NCBI RefSeq assembly: GCF_025362435.1
Contig: NZ_JANYGL010000123.1
Coordinates: forward strand, 1 to 37,226
Origin: Polymorphobacter sp.
GTDB taxonomy: Bacteria > Pseudomonadota > Alphaproteobacteria > Sphingomonadales > Sphingomonadaceae
Direction of reading: 5' to 3'
Length of the DNA stretch: 37,226 bases
The notes beneath the pieces are model-generated. The model was not told the origin of the DNA. It made no database searches and saw only the letters and a program-made list of their open reading frames with translations. Position 1 is the stretch's first letter. Each line of letters opens with the position of its first letter. Both the position numbers and the translations under genes were made by a program. Positions 2,792 to 30,793 of the stretch are shown here, piece after piece.

Positions 2792-3184
2792 ATGAAACTC
2801 GCCATTGCCTTGATGACCGCATTGCTCGCCACTGCCGCGAGCGCGCAGACCGCGCCGTCGACGACGGCTTCGGAGCGTGCGAGCGAGACTCCCGCCGCAC
2901 GCGCACAGCGTCTGGCGAACGACCGCGCGCATTCCACCGCACATGCCAACGAGACCCCGGCGCAGCGGTCGCAGCGCCTTGCCGCCGACAAGGCGCGGTC
3001 GATGAACGCCGAGCGCAACGAGACGCCGACGGCGGCCGATGCAACTGCGGACCAGAAGCGGCTTGCTGCCGACGAGTCGCGATCGTTCGCCAAGCGCGCC
3101 GCGACCGAGACCCCGGCACAGCGCGAGCAGCGGCTTGCTGCAGACCGGGCGCGCGGGATAGCGAAGAAGCACCACCACGCCTGA
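2792..3184 (+). CDS. Secreted repeat protein, 130 aa
   Basis: Starts at ATG 2792, preceded by GGAG (2781-2784). Residues 1-18 (MKLAIALMTALLATAASA) are a clear Sec signal peptide with an A-x-A cleavage site. The mature part is low in complexity and made of imperfect repeats of about 25-30 residues, each built on ETPAxRxQRLAADRARS. Recognisable copies of the ETPA...QRLA core begin near residues 29, 50 and 105, with a degenerate copy between. The repeats are rich in Ala, Arg, Gln and Glu, should be helical or disordered, and alternate acidic and basic residues. It ends in a His-rich tail (KKHHHA). I know no function. A periplasmic, stress- or metal-related role would be a guess from the signal peptide and His tail. 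It is convergent with bdhA, with a hairpin between. Confidence 0.75.
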   Translation: MKLAIALMTALLATAASAQTAPSTTASERASETPAARAQRLANDRAHSTAHANETPAQRSQRLAADKARSMNAERNETPTAADATADQKRLAADESRSFAKRAATETPAQREQRLAADRARGIAKKHHHA

Positions 3185-9704: not shown

Positions 9705-9899
9705 CCTTCTAAATCCTCCCCCGTCTTCGGGGGAGGGGGACCGCGCCTCTTGGCGTGGTGGAGGGGGCCTCACACGCGGAATTCACGTTGCGGAGCCCTC
9801 TCCACCATCGCGAAGGGCGATGGTCCCCCTCCCCCGCAAGAGCGAGGGAGGATTAAGAAGCAAGTGCTCCCGCGAGGGCGAGGGCGAGGGAGGATCTAG
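9705..9899. repeat. Paired two-hairpin palindromic repeat (copy A)
   Basis: Two copies of a unit of about 60 bp in inverted orientation (9705-9768 and 9796-9860), separated by about 27 bp, plus a degenerate half copy (9861-9899). Each unit has a hairpin of type CCTCCCCCG / CGGGGGAGG followed by a second of type ACCxCGCC / GGCGxGGT, and ends in GTGGAGGGGG. The second stem differs between arms by compensated changes, showing selection on pairing. The same family recurs at 11956-12015 and 12383-12560. It fills the divergent gap between the DUF815 gene and yajC. Confidence 0.85.
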
Positions 9900-10354: not shown

Positions 10355-11953
10355 ATGCTCGGCTTTCCGAACTGGAAAGTGTGGACGATCCTCGCCACGC
10401 TCGTCCTCGGCGTGATCTTCGCGATCCCCAACTTCGTCCCCGCGTCGACGCTCAGGTCGATGCCGTCGTTCGTGCCCACCGGCACGCTCAACCTCGGCCT
10501 CGACCTGCGCGGCGGCAGCTACATGATGCTCGAGGCGGCGACAGACGACGTCCGCAAGCAGAAGCTCGACAGCCTCGAGGAAACCGCGCGGACCGAGCTG
10601 GCGGGAGCCGATGGCGGCCCGGTCAAGTACCGCGACCTCGGCATCAGCGGCAACGCCGTCTCGCTGACGGTGACCGATCCGACGACGCTCGACCGCGCGG
10701 TCGAGACGCTGCGCAAGGTGACGCGCCCGGTCGGCAACCTGACCGGCCAGCGCGACGTCGAGATCGCCGTCGTCGACGGCAACCGGGTGACGATGACCCC
10801 GACCGACGCCGGGATCACGTCGGCGACCAACAGCGCGATGGAGCAGGAAGTCGAGGTCATCCGCCGTCGGATCGACGAACTCGGCACGCGCGAGCCGACG
10901 ATCGTCCGCCAGGGCGACAACCGCGTCGTCGTCCAGGTTCCCGGCTTGCAAGATCCATCGGCGCTCAAGGCGTTGATCGGCAAGACCGCCAAGCTCGAGT
11001 TCAAGCTCGTCGACACCGAGGCCGATCCCGCCGAGGTCGCCGCGGGTCACGCCCCCGCCGGCAGCCAGATCCTGCCGTTTGCCGACCAGCCGGGCACCGT
11101 CGCCGTCAAGCGCCGTGCCATGATTACGGGCGACCAGCTCGTCGACAGCCAGGTCGGGCAGGACGACAATGGTTCGCCCGCGGTCACCTTCCGCTTCGAT
11201 GCAACCGGCGGCCGCCGCTTCGCCAAGGCGACGCAGGAGAATGTCGGCAAGCCGTTCGCGATCATTCTCGACAACAAGGTGATATCCGCGCCGCGTATCA
11301 ACGGCGCGATCCTCGGTGGGTCGGGGATCATCACCGGCAACTATACCACCGCGAGTGCCAACCAGTTCGCCATCCTGCTCCGCTCGGGCAAGCTGCCGGT
11401 CGAACTCAAGATCGTCGAAGAACGCACCGTCGGCCCCGATCTCGGGGCGGACTCGATCCGCGCCGGCAGCCTCGCCGCCGGCACTGCGGTGATCGCGGTC
11501 GCGCTGCTGATGATCGTCACCTATGGCCGCTTCGGCGTCTATTCGGTGATCGCGCTCGTCCTCAACATGATCCTGATCATCGGCGTGATGTCGGTCGTCG
11601 GAGCGACGCTGACGCTGCCGGGGATCGCCGGGCTGGTCCTGACGATCGGCGCGGCGGTCGACGCCAACGTCCTGATCAACGAGCGCATCCGCGAGGAGCA
11701 GCGCAAGGGCAGGGGCGTCATCGCCTCGGTCGAAGTCGGCTTCCGCGACGCGACGCGGACGATCTGGGACGCCAACTCGCTCAACATCATCGTCGCGATC
11801 ATCATGTTCCTGTTCGGCTCGGGTCCGATCAAGGGCTTTGCGGTGGTGCTGTCGATCGGCATCGCGACGAGCGTCTTCACCGCCGTAACCGTCGTCCGCC
11901 TGATGGTCTCCCGCTGGCTGACCAGCGCCCGCCCGAAGGCGCTGGCGATATGA
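10355..11953 (+). CDS. secD: Protein translocase subunit SecD
   Basis: 532 residues, normal length. SecD with SecF uses the proton-motive force to pull translocating proteins into the periplasm. N-terminal TM (about 9-26), then motif LNLGLDLRGGSYMMLEA. The periplasmic P1 region includes the base (VEVIRRRIDELGTREPTIVRQG), and the C-terminal half holds five TMs with GAAVDANVLINERIREE. Following an ATG one base after the yajC stop, it has no strong Shine-Dalgarno of its own. Normally secF follows at once in this class. Here about 640 bp carrying palindromic repeats and a DUF559 gene intervene. Confidence 0.97.
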   Translation: MLGFPNWKVWTILATLVLGVIFAIPNFVPASTLRSMPSFVPTGTLNLGLDLRGGSYMMLEAATDDVRKQKLDSLEETARTELAGADGGPVKYRDLGISGNAVSLTVTDPTTLDRAVETLRKVTRPVGNLTGQRDVEIAVVDGNRVTMTPTDAGITSATNSAMEQEVEVIRRRIDELGTREPTIVRQGDNRVVVQVPGLQDPSALKALIGKTAKLEFKLVDTEADPAEVAAGHAPAGSQILPFADQPGTVAVKRRAMITGDQLVDSQVGQDDNGSPAVTFRFDATGGRRFAKATQENVGKPFAIILDNKVISAPRINGAILGGSGIITGNYTTASANQFAILLRSGKLPVELKIVEERTVGPDLGADSIRAGSLAAGTAVIAVALLMIVTYGRFGVYSVIALVLNMILIIGVMSVVGATLTLPGIAGLVLTIGAAVDANVLINERIREEQRKGRGVIASVEVGFRDATRTIWDANSLNIIVAIIMFLFGSGPIKGFAVVLSIGIATSVFTAVTVVRLMVSRWLTSARPKALAI

Positions 11954-11955
11954 CG

Positions 11956-12015
11956 CCTTCTAAAATCCTCCCCGCCTTCGGGGAGGGGAACCATGCCCTT
12001 GCATGGTGGAGGGGC
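11956..12015 (+). repeat. Two-hairpin palindromic repeat (copy B, single unit)
   Basis: One unit directly after the secD stop: hairpin CCTCCCCG / CGGGGAGG with loop CCTT, then hairpin ACCATGC / GCATGGT, ending in GGAGGGGC. It has the same architecture and orientation as the left arm of copy A. It lies 32 bp upstream of the DUF559 start codon. Confidence 0.85.
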
Positions 12016-12047
12016 AGCGGTGCGAGCTCGCGCGCCGGACAGGCCAC

Positions 12048-12599
12048 ATGAGCGGCGCACCCGCGATCGTCGACACCGCCCGCCGTCTTCGTGGCACGAT
12101 GAGCCTCCCCGAAGTCATGCTTTGGCAGGAACTCCGCCAGCGCCCGGGCGGACTCAAATTCCGCCGCCAGCACGCCATCGGTGAGTATGTGCTCGATTTC
12201 TACTGCGCCTCGGCTCGTCTCGCGGTCGAGATCGATGGTCGCTCGCACGATGCCGGCGACCGGCCCGAACGCGACGCTGCTCGCGACGCATGGCTTGCGG
12301 AACGCGGTGTCCGGTGCGTGCGGATCATCGCTGCAACCGTACTTGCCGACCCCGCAGGCGTCGCCGCATGGCTCGGTACCTTGATCTTCCCCGGCACGGG
12401 GAGGGGGACCGCGGCCCTCTTGGGGCGTGGTGGAGGGGCGGCCGAGCGAACCCGCTCTTCGAGCCCGTTGTACCGCCCCTCCACCATCGCAAGGGCGATG
12501 GTCCCCCTCCCCGAAGGCGGGGAGGATCAAGGGGTCTGCTCCGCAAGCGGGGAGGATCCTGTCGTCCGTGCGCTTGAAGGTCAGTCCGCATGCCGTTGA
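12048..12599 (+). CDS. DUF559 endonuclease-like protein inserted between secD and secF
   Basis: DUF559 proteins are small PD-(D/E)XK-fold nuclease-like proteins related to the Vsr mismatch endonuclease; their role is not established. Residues 1-112 are canonical: SLPEVMLWQELR (19-30), GLKFRRQHAIGEYVLDFYC, and the catalytic-type set Asp50 ... Glu61-x-Asp63 (VEIDG), then RDAWLAERGVRCVRI. I start at ATG 12048 (MSGAP). A longer reading from 12003 begins inside repeat copy B. The family usually ends near VAAWLGTLI (about residue 113). Here the frame runs on for about 70 low-complexity residues encoded by repeat copy C and stops at 12599, 10 bp inside secF. The natural stop was therefore probably lost when the repeat arrived. 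Absent from the usual secDF arrangement, so a likely insertion. Confidence 0.85.
   Translation: MSGAPAIVDTARRLRGTMSLPEVMLWQELRQRPGGLKFRRQHAIGEYVLDFYCASARLAVEIDGRSHDAGDRPERDAARDAWLAERGVRCVRIIAATVLADPAGVAAWLGTLIFPGTGRGTAALLGRGGGAAERTRSSSPLYRPSTIARAMVPLPEGGEDQGVCSASGEDPVVRALEGQSACR
12383..12560. repeat. Paired two-hairpin palindromic repeat (copy C)
   Basis: Left arm 12383-12441, right arm inverted at 12473-12532, separated by about 31 bp. A further partial hairpin unit (GCTCCGC / GCGGGGAG type) lies at 12534-12560. It has the same two-hairpin design as copies A and B. It overlaps the 3' end of the DUF559 reading frame, supplies its terminal codons, and ends 30 bp before the secF start. Confidence 0.85.
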
Positions 12600-13546
12600 A
12601 GATCGTTCCCGACAATACCAACATCGGCTTCGTCAAGCTGCGCTACCTCGCGTTCGCGCTGACGCTGCTGCTGACGCTCGGCTCGATCGGGTTGCTGGCG
12701 ACGCGCGGGCTCAACCTCGGGGTCGATTTCGTCGGCGGGTTGACGATGGAGGTGGCATTTCCGTCCCCGCCGCCGCTCGACCGGTTGCGTGGGGAGGTCG
12801 GAAGCCTCGGCGTCGGCGATGTCTCGCTGCAGGAGTTCGGCAACGCCCGGACGATCCTGATCCGCCTGCCGCTCCCCCCGGGCGACCAGGCGGCGGTCCA
12901 GCGCGTCGTCGCCAAGGTCCAGGCCGACCTCAAGGGCAAGTACGGCAACGTCAGCTTCCGCCGCACCGAATCGGTCAGCGGCAAGGTCAGCCAGGAGCTG
13001 ATCCGCAAGGGCGCGCTCGCGGTGCTGCTGTCGATGGCGGCGGTGGCGCTGTTCACCTGGTTCCGCTTTGAGTGGCATTTCGGCGTCTCGACCGTCGTCG
13101 CGCTGGTCCACGACGTCACGGTGACGCTCGGCTTCTTCGCGCTGACGCACCTCGAGTTCGACTTGAACGTCGTCGCGGCGATCCTGACGATCATTGGCTA
13201 CAGCCTCAACGACAAGGTCGTGATCGACGACCGGATCCGCGAAAACCTGCGCAAGTACCGGCAGATGGACATCGGCCCGATCATCGACCTCAGCGTCAAC
13301 GAGACGCTGCCGCGGACGGTGATGACCAGCCTCGCGATGATCACTGCGCTGACGGCGATGCTGCTGCTTGGCCCCGACGTCATCTTCGGCTTCACCGCGG
13401 CGATGTTGCTCGGGATCGTCGTCGGCACGTATTCGTCGATCTTCGTCTCGTCGTCGCTGCTGATCGCGCTCGGCGTCAAGCCGAAGATCGAGCCGCTGGC
13501 GAAGAAGACTGGCCCCTCGATCAACGTCGAGCGGGCGCGCCGTTAA
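12590..13546 (+). CDS. secF: Protein translocase subunit SecF
   Basis: 318 residues, full length. Partner of SecD in the inner membrane. N-terminal TM (about 16-40), then the SecF signature LNLGVDFVGGLTMEV, a short periplasmic domain, and five C-terminal TMs containing the conserved GYSLNDKVVIDDRIREN (about 203-219). The ATG at 12590 has GAAGG upstream. It overlaps the end of the DUF559 frame by 10 bp, so its translation may be helped by ribosomes ending on that frame. Without the DUF559 read-through, secF would be separated from secD by an untranslated hairpin-rich stretch. It is the last gene of the sec cluster. Confidence 0.96.
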   Translation: MPLKIVPDNTNIGFVKLRYLAFALTLLLTLGSIGLLATRGLNLGVDFVGGLTMEVAFPSPPPLDRLRGEVGSLGVGDVSLQEFGNARTILIRLPLPPGDQAAVQRVVAKVQADLKGKYGNVSFRRTESVSGKVSQELIRKGALAVLLSMAAVALFTWFRFEWHFGVSTVVALVHDVTVTLGFFALTHLEFDLNVVAAILTIIGYSLNDKVVIDDRIRENLRKYRQMDIGPIIDLSVNETLPRTVMTSLAMITALTAMLLLGPDVIFGFTAAMLLGIVVGTYSSIFVSSSLLIALGVKPKIEPLAKKTGPSINVERARR

Positions 13547-13611: not shown

Positions 13612-14013
13612 ATGGTCGTTCCCCCGCCTCGTCGCCGTCGTCGTCGCACCGGCTGGATCCCGGCGCGCCAGCGTCAGTTCGTTACCGACCTCGCAACCTC
13701 GGGTAACGTCCGCGAGGTCTGCGCGCGGATCGGCCTGTCGCGGGCGAGCGCGTACAAGTTTCGCGAACAGCCGCACAACGCCGCCTTCGCCCACGCGTGG
13801 GACGCGGCGCTTGATAAATACATAAGTGAGATCGCGAACGAAGCGGCCGATCGCGTTATCGACGGCGAGACGCGGCCGGTAAAATACAAGGGCGCGATCG
13901 TCGGCGAGAAGGTCGTCATCAGCAATCGCCTGCTGACCGCGCTCCTGCTCTATCGCTCGCAACCGCGGACTAGCCGCGCGAAGCCGCCGAAAACGTCAAC
14001 ACTGTCAACTTAA
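13612..14013 (+). CDS. Small HTH protein (terminase-small-subunit-like)
   Basis: 133 residues. After a very basic N-terminus (PPPRRRRRRTGW) comes a homeodomain-like HTH (ARQRQFVTDLATSGNVREVCARIGLSRASAYKFRE, about 18-52), then an acidic/aromatic helix (NAAFAHAWDAALDKYI). I know this type as a recurrent small DNA-binding protein in sphingomonads that resembles the N-terminus of phage terminase small subunits. Its function is unknown. The C-terminal residues TLST come from one arm of a direct repeat (13995-14069). Start ATG 13612 lies only 5 bp after a good -10 box, so the mRNA may be leaderless. No intrinsic terminator separates it from secF. Regulator or prophage relic are both possible. Confidence 0.75.
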   Translation: MVVPPPRRRRRRTGWIPARQRQFVTDLATSGNVREVCARIGLSRASAYKFREQPHNAAFAHAWDAALDKYISEIANEAADRVIDGETRPVKYKGAIVGEKVVISNRLLTALLLYRSQPRTSRAKPPKTSTLST

Positions 14014-30666: not shown

Positions 30667-30793
30667 CTCCCCTCCCCTTCAGGGGAGGAGTGAGAGACAG
30701 CGCGCTTGCGCTGGCCCGGGGGTGGGGAAGCCACAAGCTCGGTCCTCGCGGCGACTCCCCCACCCCCAACCCCTCCCCTGAAGGGGAGGGGAG
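30667..30793. repeat. Palindromic repeat pair of a second family
   Basis: Hairpin CCTCCCC-TTCA-GGGGAGG (about 30669-30688) and an inverted copy, CCCTCCCC-TGAA-type (about 30770-30793), enclose GGGGGTGGGGA and its complement TCCCCCACCCCC. It is an inverted pair like the repeats near secDF, but the sequence differs (GGGGTGGGG head, no ACCxxGCC hairpin). It lies between thiolase and the hydratase/dehydrogenase gene. Confidence 0.8.

Follow-up and report, generated by a model that had tools for sequence, protein, structure and literature searches.

A DUF559 gene enclosed by inverted triplex-type repeats was found to constitute a recurrent mobile unit, which also exists as gene-less and internally deleted derivatives. 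DUF559 proteins are common and little is known of their function, and we found no report in the open-access literature of a link between them and repeats of this type. The analysis concerned a window of 37,226 nucleotides (contig NZ_JANYGL010000123.1) from the genome of a Polymorphobacter sp., in which the stretch between secD and secF would be a copy of a minimal kind of mobile element, i.e., a single gene for a PD-(D/E)XK nuclease placed between inverted G+C-rich hairpin/triplex-type repeats. We consider it probable that the DUF559 protein of such a nuclease-REP element acts at the repeat ends both in cis and in trans, with cleavage as its presumed activity. In this process the nuclease would recognise the repeat ends, probably extruded as a hairpin or triplex on single-stranded DNA, and would nick there, and host repair or replication would then capture the unit between genes, in many cases directly after a stop codon that separates two neighbours in an operon. 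Pairs without a gene (REPINs) would depend on the enzyme acting in trans, in the way that MITEs depend on a transposase.

The DUF559 gene between secD and secF

A first-pass annotation of the window, made from its letters alone, had placed a DUF559 gene between secD and secF, and a Pfam profile search bore this out, with the ORF matching PF04480 at 88.3 bits against a cut-off of 20.6 (Table 1). An alternative in-frame ATG lies upstream of the start given in the table, at 12003. The frame stays open across the downstream repeats, and its TGA stop overlaps the start of secF. In the copy of another genome, G005, there is a single downstream unit, yet the frame ends at the same place, and as the overlap is present in both despite their different downstream repeats, the inserted gene and secF may be translationally coupled.

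Table 1. Features of the DUF559 locus in the window and of the related repeat pair on its yajC side.
Feature	Position	Strand	Details
Gene-less inverted pair, REPIN-like, upstream of yajC	9706..9859	.	folding, motif scan (L024)
secD, left host gene	10355..11953	+	ORF list, Pfam
Upstream repeat unit	11965..12014	+	arms CCTCCCC / GGGGAGG / GGAGGGG; small hairpin inside second loop
DUF559 gene (putative nuclease)	12048..12599	+	183 aa; PF04480 match, ORF end
Downstream inverted pair, REPIN-like	12386..12525	.	units 12386-12438 (+) and 12476-12525 (-); spacer 37 bp (L010)
Extra half unit, cut off	about 12533..12560	-	read by eye
secF, right host gene	12590..13546	+	ORF list, Pfam

The first-pass annotation had also described copies of one and the same two-hairpin repeat on both sides of the gene. 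Inverted copies do flank it, the upstream unit matching 12498-12527 over 30 nt at 97%, but the unit possesses a third arm in addition to its hairpins, and the repeat downstream, although present as described, is an inverted pair plus a cut-off half unit rather than one copy. The left arm of the (+) unit of this downstream pair is imperfect. The paired copy that had been reported upstream of yajC is real, and a partial duplicate of the end of that pair continues to about 9899.

Elsewhere in the window, a lone triplex-type repeat of another class (CCCCTCCCCTTCAGGGGAGGGGTTGGGGGTGG) lies at 30760-30791 (-), inside long overlapping ORFs, and ORFs at 2838-3166 contain direct repeats, about 53 and 41 bp long, that have diverged. 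Behind secF there is an ORF at 13612-14013 (133 aa) that has no Pfam match, and whose N-terminal part resembles, by eye, a helix-turn-helix.

A dispersed repeat with three arms

The three arms CCTCCCC, GGGGAGG and GGAGGGG were present with zero mismatches at 9715-9766, 11967-12014 and 12476-12525. The third arm mirrors the second, and the second hairpin of the unit sits in the loop between these two. Single-strand folding of three pieces around the gene and of two yajC-side units gave z values of -3.1 to -5.0 relative to shuffles, and the downstream pair folded as a whole gave z = -10. The compensated stem changes noted in the first-pass annotation held up as well: among 24 distinct units of the Polymorphobacter genome, the outer four pairs of hairpin 2 were Watson-Crick in 88.5% of cases versus 52% (maximum 70%) when partners were shuffled, and the same test of stem covariation on 107 units across loci gave 87.5% versus 48%.

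The assembly that holds the window (2.9 Mb in 165 contigs, 97% complete) contains 24 dispersed matches to the window repeat with three or fewer mismatches, while the reversed pattern has none, and these reversed-pattern and shuffled controls rule out chance repeats. Fifteen of the 24 matches belong, as counted by eye, to 14 inverted pairs that enclose no gene and whose units stand about 30-60 bp apart, and the ends of the gene-less pairs in this genome resemble CTAAATCCTCCCC. The dispersed palindromes are often paired in inverted orientation, and the gene-less (REPIN-like) pairs are commoner in this genome than gene-bearing units. Hairpins of the general type number 179, versus 0 in the reversed control, and 66 units are of a GGGGACC class.

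The Polymorphobacter genome has three DUF559 matches, all of which are bracketed, by two repeat families. The units in the secD-secF gap and at pntAA-pntAB are both bracketed by the CCTCCCC...GGGGACC class, and the third gene, a neighbour of acpP, fabF and a fabG-like gene, by another class (CCCTCTCCCGC...GGGAGAGGGCGAGAGACG), the host genes at the pnt and acpP loci having been named by reading their sequence.

Bracketing of most of the DUF559 genes surveyed

The bracket of a gene was scored as the best inverted repeat between the 400-bp flanks of the DUF559 domain, with a threshold of 15 or more. This score was reached by 69 of 91 DUF559 genes of the Polymorphobacter genome and its relatives, versus 1 of 118 shifted controls, in a set that comprises part of the genome matches, stronger ones preferred, and that leaves out the clipped loci L048 and L053. 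Among named Sphingomonadales the counts were 57 of 72 loci and, in the shifted control, 1 of 135 (the loci being the best 80 of at least 512 relatives, less eight that were clipped). Phylum-wide, 12 of 27 DUF559 genes were bracketed compared with 0 of 27 HNH genes used as a control (1 of 28 DUF559 and 3 of 30 HNH loci being left out), and 13 of 20 in a second phylum-wide set.

A scan for the arms themselves, i.e., for a pyrimidine arm, a purine arm and its mirrored purine arm, found the motif within 250 bp of 192 of 216 DUF559 genes, versus 5 of 299 shifted positions and 0 of 216 sets of shuffled flanks; 8 of 224 genes were left out for their short flanks. With duplicates removed the count was 190 of 213 distinct genes. 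In 124 of these 213 the motif stands on both sides, inverted and with the pyrimidine arm outermost, and 23 have no three-arm motif within 250 bp. The separate sets gave 80/91, 42/48 and 68/73, and ycjD of E. coli gave 0/1. As shifted positions are mostly coding DNA, the flanks of other genes are a fairer control, and there the motif was found at 1 of 27 HNH genes, 0 of 18 Y1_Tnp genes and 7 of 28 secF genes (two of the seven being DUF559-filled gaps), or on either side of 8 of 73 and on both sides of none; left out were 3 of 30 HNH, 8 of 26 Y1 and 2 of 30 secF loci. The comparison of 190 of 213 with 8 of 73 shows that DUF559 genes are repeat-flanked beyond expectation, as the initial suspicion of a link between gene and repeat would have it. 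No polarity of the two unit ends was found.

The putative nuclease

D50, E61, D63, G64 and H67 are invariant among 15 aligned DUF559 domains, and D50, E61, D63 and H67 are taken for the PD-(D/E)XK core. The genes are under purifying selection, with dN/dS of about 0.07-0.25. A structure model of the enzyme (pLDDT 88.6) had as its closest nuclease folds in Foldseek the putative endonuclease 3hrl and the homing endonuclease I-Bth0305I, followed by PvuRts1I and Vsr, with TM values of 0.65/0.74 for I-Bth0305I and about 0.5/0.4 for Vsr; the list also included mitoribosomal chains. The model suggests a fold that DUF559 has in common with I-Bth0305I and Vsr. The contexts differ, I-Bth0305I being found in that of an intron and Vsr in that of a methylase, whereas in DUF559 the catalytic domain stands alone and its gene is placed between repeats.

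Matching of enzyme and repeat

Between genomes, the similarity of DUF559 proteins predicts the similarity of their repeats (rho 0.59, permutation maximum 0.04), and within genomes a gene's own repeat resembles the repeat of its nearest homologue elsewhere more than the repeats of sister genes do in 54 cases versus 9, with 1 tie (p = 6e-9), a match that can arise from linkage alone. Dispersed copies provide partial independent support in G058, where, among the matches listed, two repeat families, mostly in gene-less pairs, each bracket a DUF559 gene of their own. G016 is a counterexample, with 98 units of the GGGGACC class and two DUF559 genes that both show other classes.

The number of DUF559 genes rises with the number of hairpins, with a rho of 0.76 over 98 genomes, that of the window included, which are not independent of each other, and of 0.60 within the family. 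It had been proposed that genomes without DUF559 should also be without the repeat. This stood insofar as DUF559 is present in 35 of the 36 genomes that have at least 20 hairpins, versus 28 of 62 poorer ones, the exception being G003, whose genome is 71% complete and has 90 hairpins and no DUF559 match. Within the family, presence or absence of DUF559 (53 versus 6 genomes) showed no significant relation to the repeats (p = 0.23) in a test that is weak because only 6 of the 59 genomes are without DUF559. The median number of hairpins was 1.5 in 16 genomes with weak DUF559 matches only and 50 in 47 genomes with strong ones, and as the former are so poor in hairpins, it may be that such elements account for only some members of the DUF559 family.

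In six genomes a strong DUF559 match is accompanied by fewer than 5 hairpins, a finding in keeping with DUF559 being a passenger, i.e., a cargo kept between two repeat units that are moved by some other enzyme. The excess of gene-less pairs over gene-bearing units would suit a passenger too. The cargo of such a system should vary, yet of ten convergent pairs of units lying 300-1000 bp apart, nine were seen by eye, among the matches listed, to hold a DUF559 gene (in G038, G058, G014, G055, G032 and G034, and three times in G050). In this listing, gene-sized intervals between repeats are thus DUF559 genes, and varied cargo was ruled out by this test. The bracket, moreover, is seen again and again, formed by repeats of different classes, in many genomes and in three phyla, and a search for the Y1/RAYT family had no match in 26 of the 36 repeat-rich genomes. 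We regard a mere passenger as unlikely, and the DUF559 protein itself as the probable agent at the repeat ends. As for the tenth convergent pair (G033, L361 about 820-1210), its loop contains no DUF559 and consists of long C and G runs, which are probably a sequencing or assembly artefact at the strong hairpin of an ordinary pair.

Mobility, and occupied and empty junctions

Movement of whole units is indicated by a relative, G050, which has three DUF559 copies at unrelated places; over the gene, two of them agree at 98% and the third at 92%. A fourth copy (L362 about 700-965) has lost an internal part of its DUF559 gene and kept both bracketing repeats, and may well represent a stage on the way from a gene-bearing unit to a gene-less pair. 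Next to each of the copies lies a short further sequence that they have in common, so the stretch that moved may exceed the bracket. No target-site duplication was found, as direct repeats at unit ends, compared over 123 units, equalled those of shuffled pairs, and the exact ends of the unit are therefore not fixed. Together with the hydrolytic fold suggested by the model, this absence would favour nick-and-repair of a homing-like kind over DDE-type transposition.

Thirteen secD-secF junctions were tried, one of which could not be placed. Of the 12 read, two were filled by DUF559, in the Polymorphobacter genome (G000) and in G005, three held gene-less pairs of other classes (G001, G033 and G015), and seven were empty. 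The comparison with empty junctions of close relatives, which the first-pass annotation had called for, could thus be made within the genus, G004 being one of the seven. With five of the 12 junctions occupied, three by gene-less pairs and two by DUF559 genes far more diverged than secF, the gap looks like a hot spot. The same annotation had held that repeats in this gap without the gene, and in unrelated places, would count against a role of DUF559. Taken literally, that is what the three relatives with gene-less pairs show, the repeats there being of other classes, and repeats are indeed present in unrelated places; non-autonomous derivatives of a mobile element look likewise, so the observation does not discriminate. 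Among seven pntAA-pntAB junctions read, that of G000 is filled. Nothing is inserted in those of G002 and G004, both of the same genus, or in that of G008, whereas other ORFs occupy the gap in G001, G003 and G005; in G005 and G003 these look like a HicAB toxin-antitoxin pair.

The DUF559 genes in the secDF gaps of G000 and G005 differ at a dS of 2.1 compared with 0.27 for secF, and may accordingly be separate arrivals or replacements. Such a pattern, as if the gene at one junction had been replaced or reinserted, would suit a homing-type nuclease, which would cut the repeat or an allelic site and be copied only by recombination into existing repeats. The further shared sequence that adjoins the G050 copies points the same way, as does the place of I-Bth0305I among the top matches of the predicted fold. 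The repeat-free junctions at secDF in G004 and at pnt in G002 and G004 suggest, on the other hand, that units arrived at repeat-free sites, and spread by homing alone seems to us quite improbable compared with a nuclease that acts at the ends of its own mobile unit.

Relation to Vsr, RAYT transposases and other mobile elements

The one experimental hint that we found on DUF559 proteins is Caulobacter VsrA, which, according to the available text of PMC12907096, is needed for the SOS/DNA-damage response of a methylase mutant, and for which the authors propose a role as a mismatch-repair nuclease at T:G mismatches. VsrA and the Vsr-like fold of the model would both agree with DUF559 being an ordinary Vsr-like repair nuclease whose gene is located by chance in repeat-prone gaps. 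That HNH, Y1 transposase and secF genes of the same genomes are bracketed on both sides in 0 of 73 cases, and that bracketed units are duplicated as wholes, makes such a coincidence very hard to accept. The idea that an IS200/RAYT-type Y1 transposase acts in trans on the repeats, which would fit the absent target-site duplication and the service of RAYTs to REPs elsewhere (PMC3733652, in the text available), can be practically dismissed, as a profile search for Y1_Tnp (PF01797, the RAYT family) had no match in the 97% complete Polymorphobacter assembly with its 179 hairpins, none of the 18 Y1 genes was flanked by the motif, and the tag GTAG or its complement CTAC was present at 5 of 246 repeat feet. 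For this genome it is largely refuted, save for the chance that a Y1 gene lies in the 3% not covered by the assembly, and a RAYT elsewhere in the genome was rejected on the same search. CGTC was present at 2 of the 246 feet, and over all genomes, Y1_Tnp matches were found in 20 of 98, including 10 of the 36 repeat-rich ones. The REP/RAYT-like layout without a tyrosine transposase that had been read from the window was thereby confirmed for its genome.

The unit of DUF559 gene and repeats is like a REP/RAYT system (REPtron) in several respects: its palindromic units are short and occur singly or as inverted pairs, with many gene-less copies; one enzyme gene is bracketed by the same units; there are several types of repeat, each with its own enzyme gene; and there is no target-site duplication. 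It differs in having a putative PD-(D/E)XK nuclease instead of an HUH/Y1 transposase, no GTAG tag, and repeats that carry a third, mirrored purine arm. As enzyme and tag differ, it works like a REP/RAYT system and is not a member of one. With MITEs and their parent insertion sequences it has in common the inverted ends and the internally deleted and gene-less derivatives; the differences are that its sole gene appears to encode a PD-(D/E)XK nuclease, not a DDE transposase, and that target-site duplication was not detected. In the available text of a survey of GTAG and CGTC repeats (PMC3733652), CGTC repeats are said to have no dedicated transposase, and untagged families are left for study.

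Triplex-type repeats of E. coli and DUF559 genes in other phyla

The arm order of C-rich, G-rich and mirrored G-rich, and the arrangement as inverted pairs, are shared with the PIT/TMECO repeats of E. coli, and a CCCTCTCCC-type core like theirs is present in many of the classes seen here. Many of the units described here differ in having an extra hairpin in the second loop, for which our limit was 30 nt, wider than the published 1-6 nt (PMC4666352, available text). Triplex-type repeats have been described since about 2000 (Hoyne et al. 2000, cited in PMC4666352). In the text available of Holder et al. 2015 (PMC4666352), the intrastrand triplex motif, e.g., CCCTCTCCCTTGAGGGAGAGGGTTAGGGTGAGGGT, is given as 23 copies in K-12, with 5 inverted pairs, and as occurring in more than 260 genomes; the E. 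coli unit is reported to form a triplex in vitro as a single strand, the repeats are associated with genome instability, and their flanking genes are reported to have no common function. That text names no mobiliser and has no word beginning with 'nuclease' or 'DUF'. In Enterobacter sp. 638, 100 such palindromes were presumed by the authors to act in transcription termination (PMC2869309, available text). We found no explanation in the open-access literature of how triplex repeats of the E. coli type spread.

One of the E. coli repeats, TMECO no. 9 (1,351,204-1,351,239), lies 167 bp from ycjD, which is annotated as a DUF559 protein and scored 167 bits in MG1655. By simple arithmetic, the chance that a given gene of this size is this close to one of 18 sites is about 0.3%. 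A second, degenerate unit was seen by eye at the 3' end of ycjD; the motif as such flanks just one side of the gene, which did not pass the strict three-arm scan. The ycjD site is variable, its region being covered to at least 80% in 3333 of 5426 complete E. coli genomes. A clean empty site was not found in the three viewed genomes whose match ends behind fabI (L306-L308), where RND efflux genes adjoin fabI in place of ycjD and sapF is out of view, and in a fourth region viewed ycjD is cut short. The E. coli control genome gave no DUF559 score, though ycjD of MG1655 scores well, and we think that the control strain is one without ycjD.

Thirteen plasmid loci, chosen from 43 and 38 matching records, widened the range of hosts. 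An inverted bracket (score of at least 15) was present in 10 of the 13, and a three-arm motif on at least one side also in 10 of 13. The bracketed genes include three from Deinococcus, located within or beside hpa and paa genes, one from Pseudanabaena, and one on pSymB of S. meliloti with a bracket of over 100 bp. In S. parapaucimobilis, the pntAA-pntAB junction on a plasmid is filled by a DUF559 gene, as it is in the Polymorphobacter genome, and another DUF559 gene lies between a GatB/YqeY-type gene and dnaG. No inverted bracket was found at the loci of Picosynechococcus, Synechocystis and A. brasilense, the two motifs in Synechocystis matching too poorly to score as one, and the strict scan found no three-arm motif in Picosynechococcus, Pseudanabaena and Novosphingobium THN1. 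In Deinococcus, and likewise in Synechocystis, the pyrimidine arm points inward, opposite to the window. As the Pseudanabaena repeat fails the strict scan, the cyanobacterial case is the weakest.

On the Pseudanabaena plasmid (L353), the bracket is an exact 40-bp inverted repeat containing CCCCCTAAATCCCCCAATTCTGGGGGACTT, a repeat that is common in cyanobacteria.

It is a broader proposition that DUF559 proteins are the dedicated mobilisers of a superfamily of palindromic triplex-type repeats that spans Pseudomonadota, Deinococcota and Cyanobacteriota and takes in the orphan PIT/TMECO repeats of E. coli, and one that, in our judgement, could fall either way.

Significance

REP-like DNA is widespread among bacteria, and to our knowledge RAYT is the only dedicated enzyme known for it. 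If DUF559 proteins do act on the repeats that enclose their genes, they would represent a second way of sowing bacteria with REP-like DNA, unrelated to RAYT and working via a restriction-fold nuclease on non-B DNA. The link gives a testable role to DUF559 proteins and to triplex-type repeats alike, and it predicts that each DUF559 enzyme has its substrate spelled out in the flanks of its gene, and that every orphan family of repeats has an enzyme to go with it. The link may bear on the genome instability that has been associated with triplex-type repeats (PMC4666352, available text), and also on the arrival of small genes inside conserved operons, such as those of secDF and pnt.
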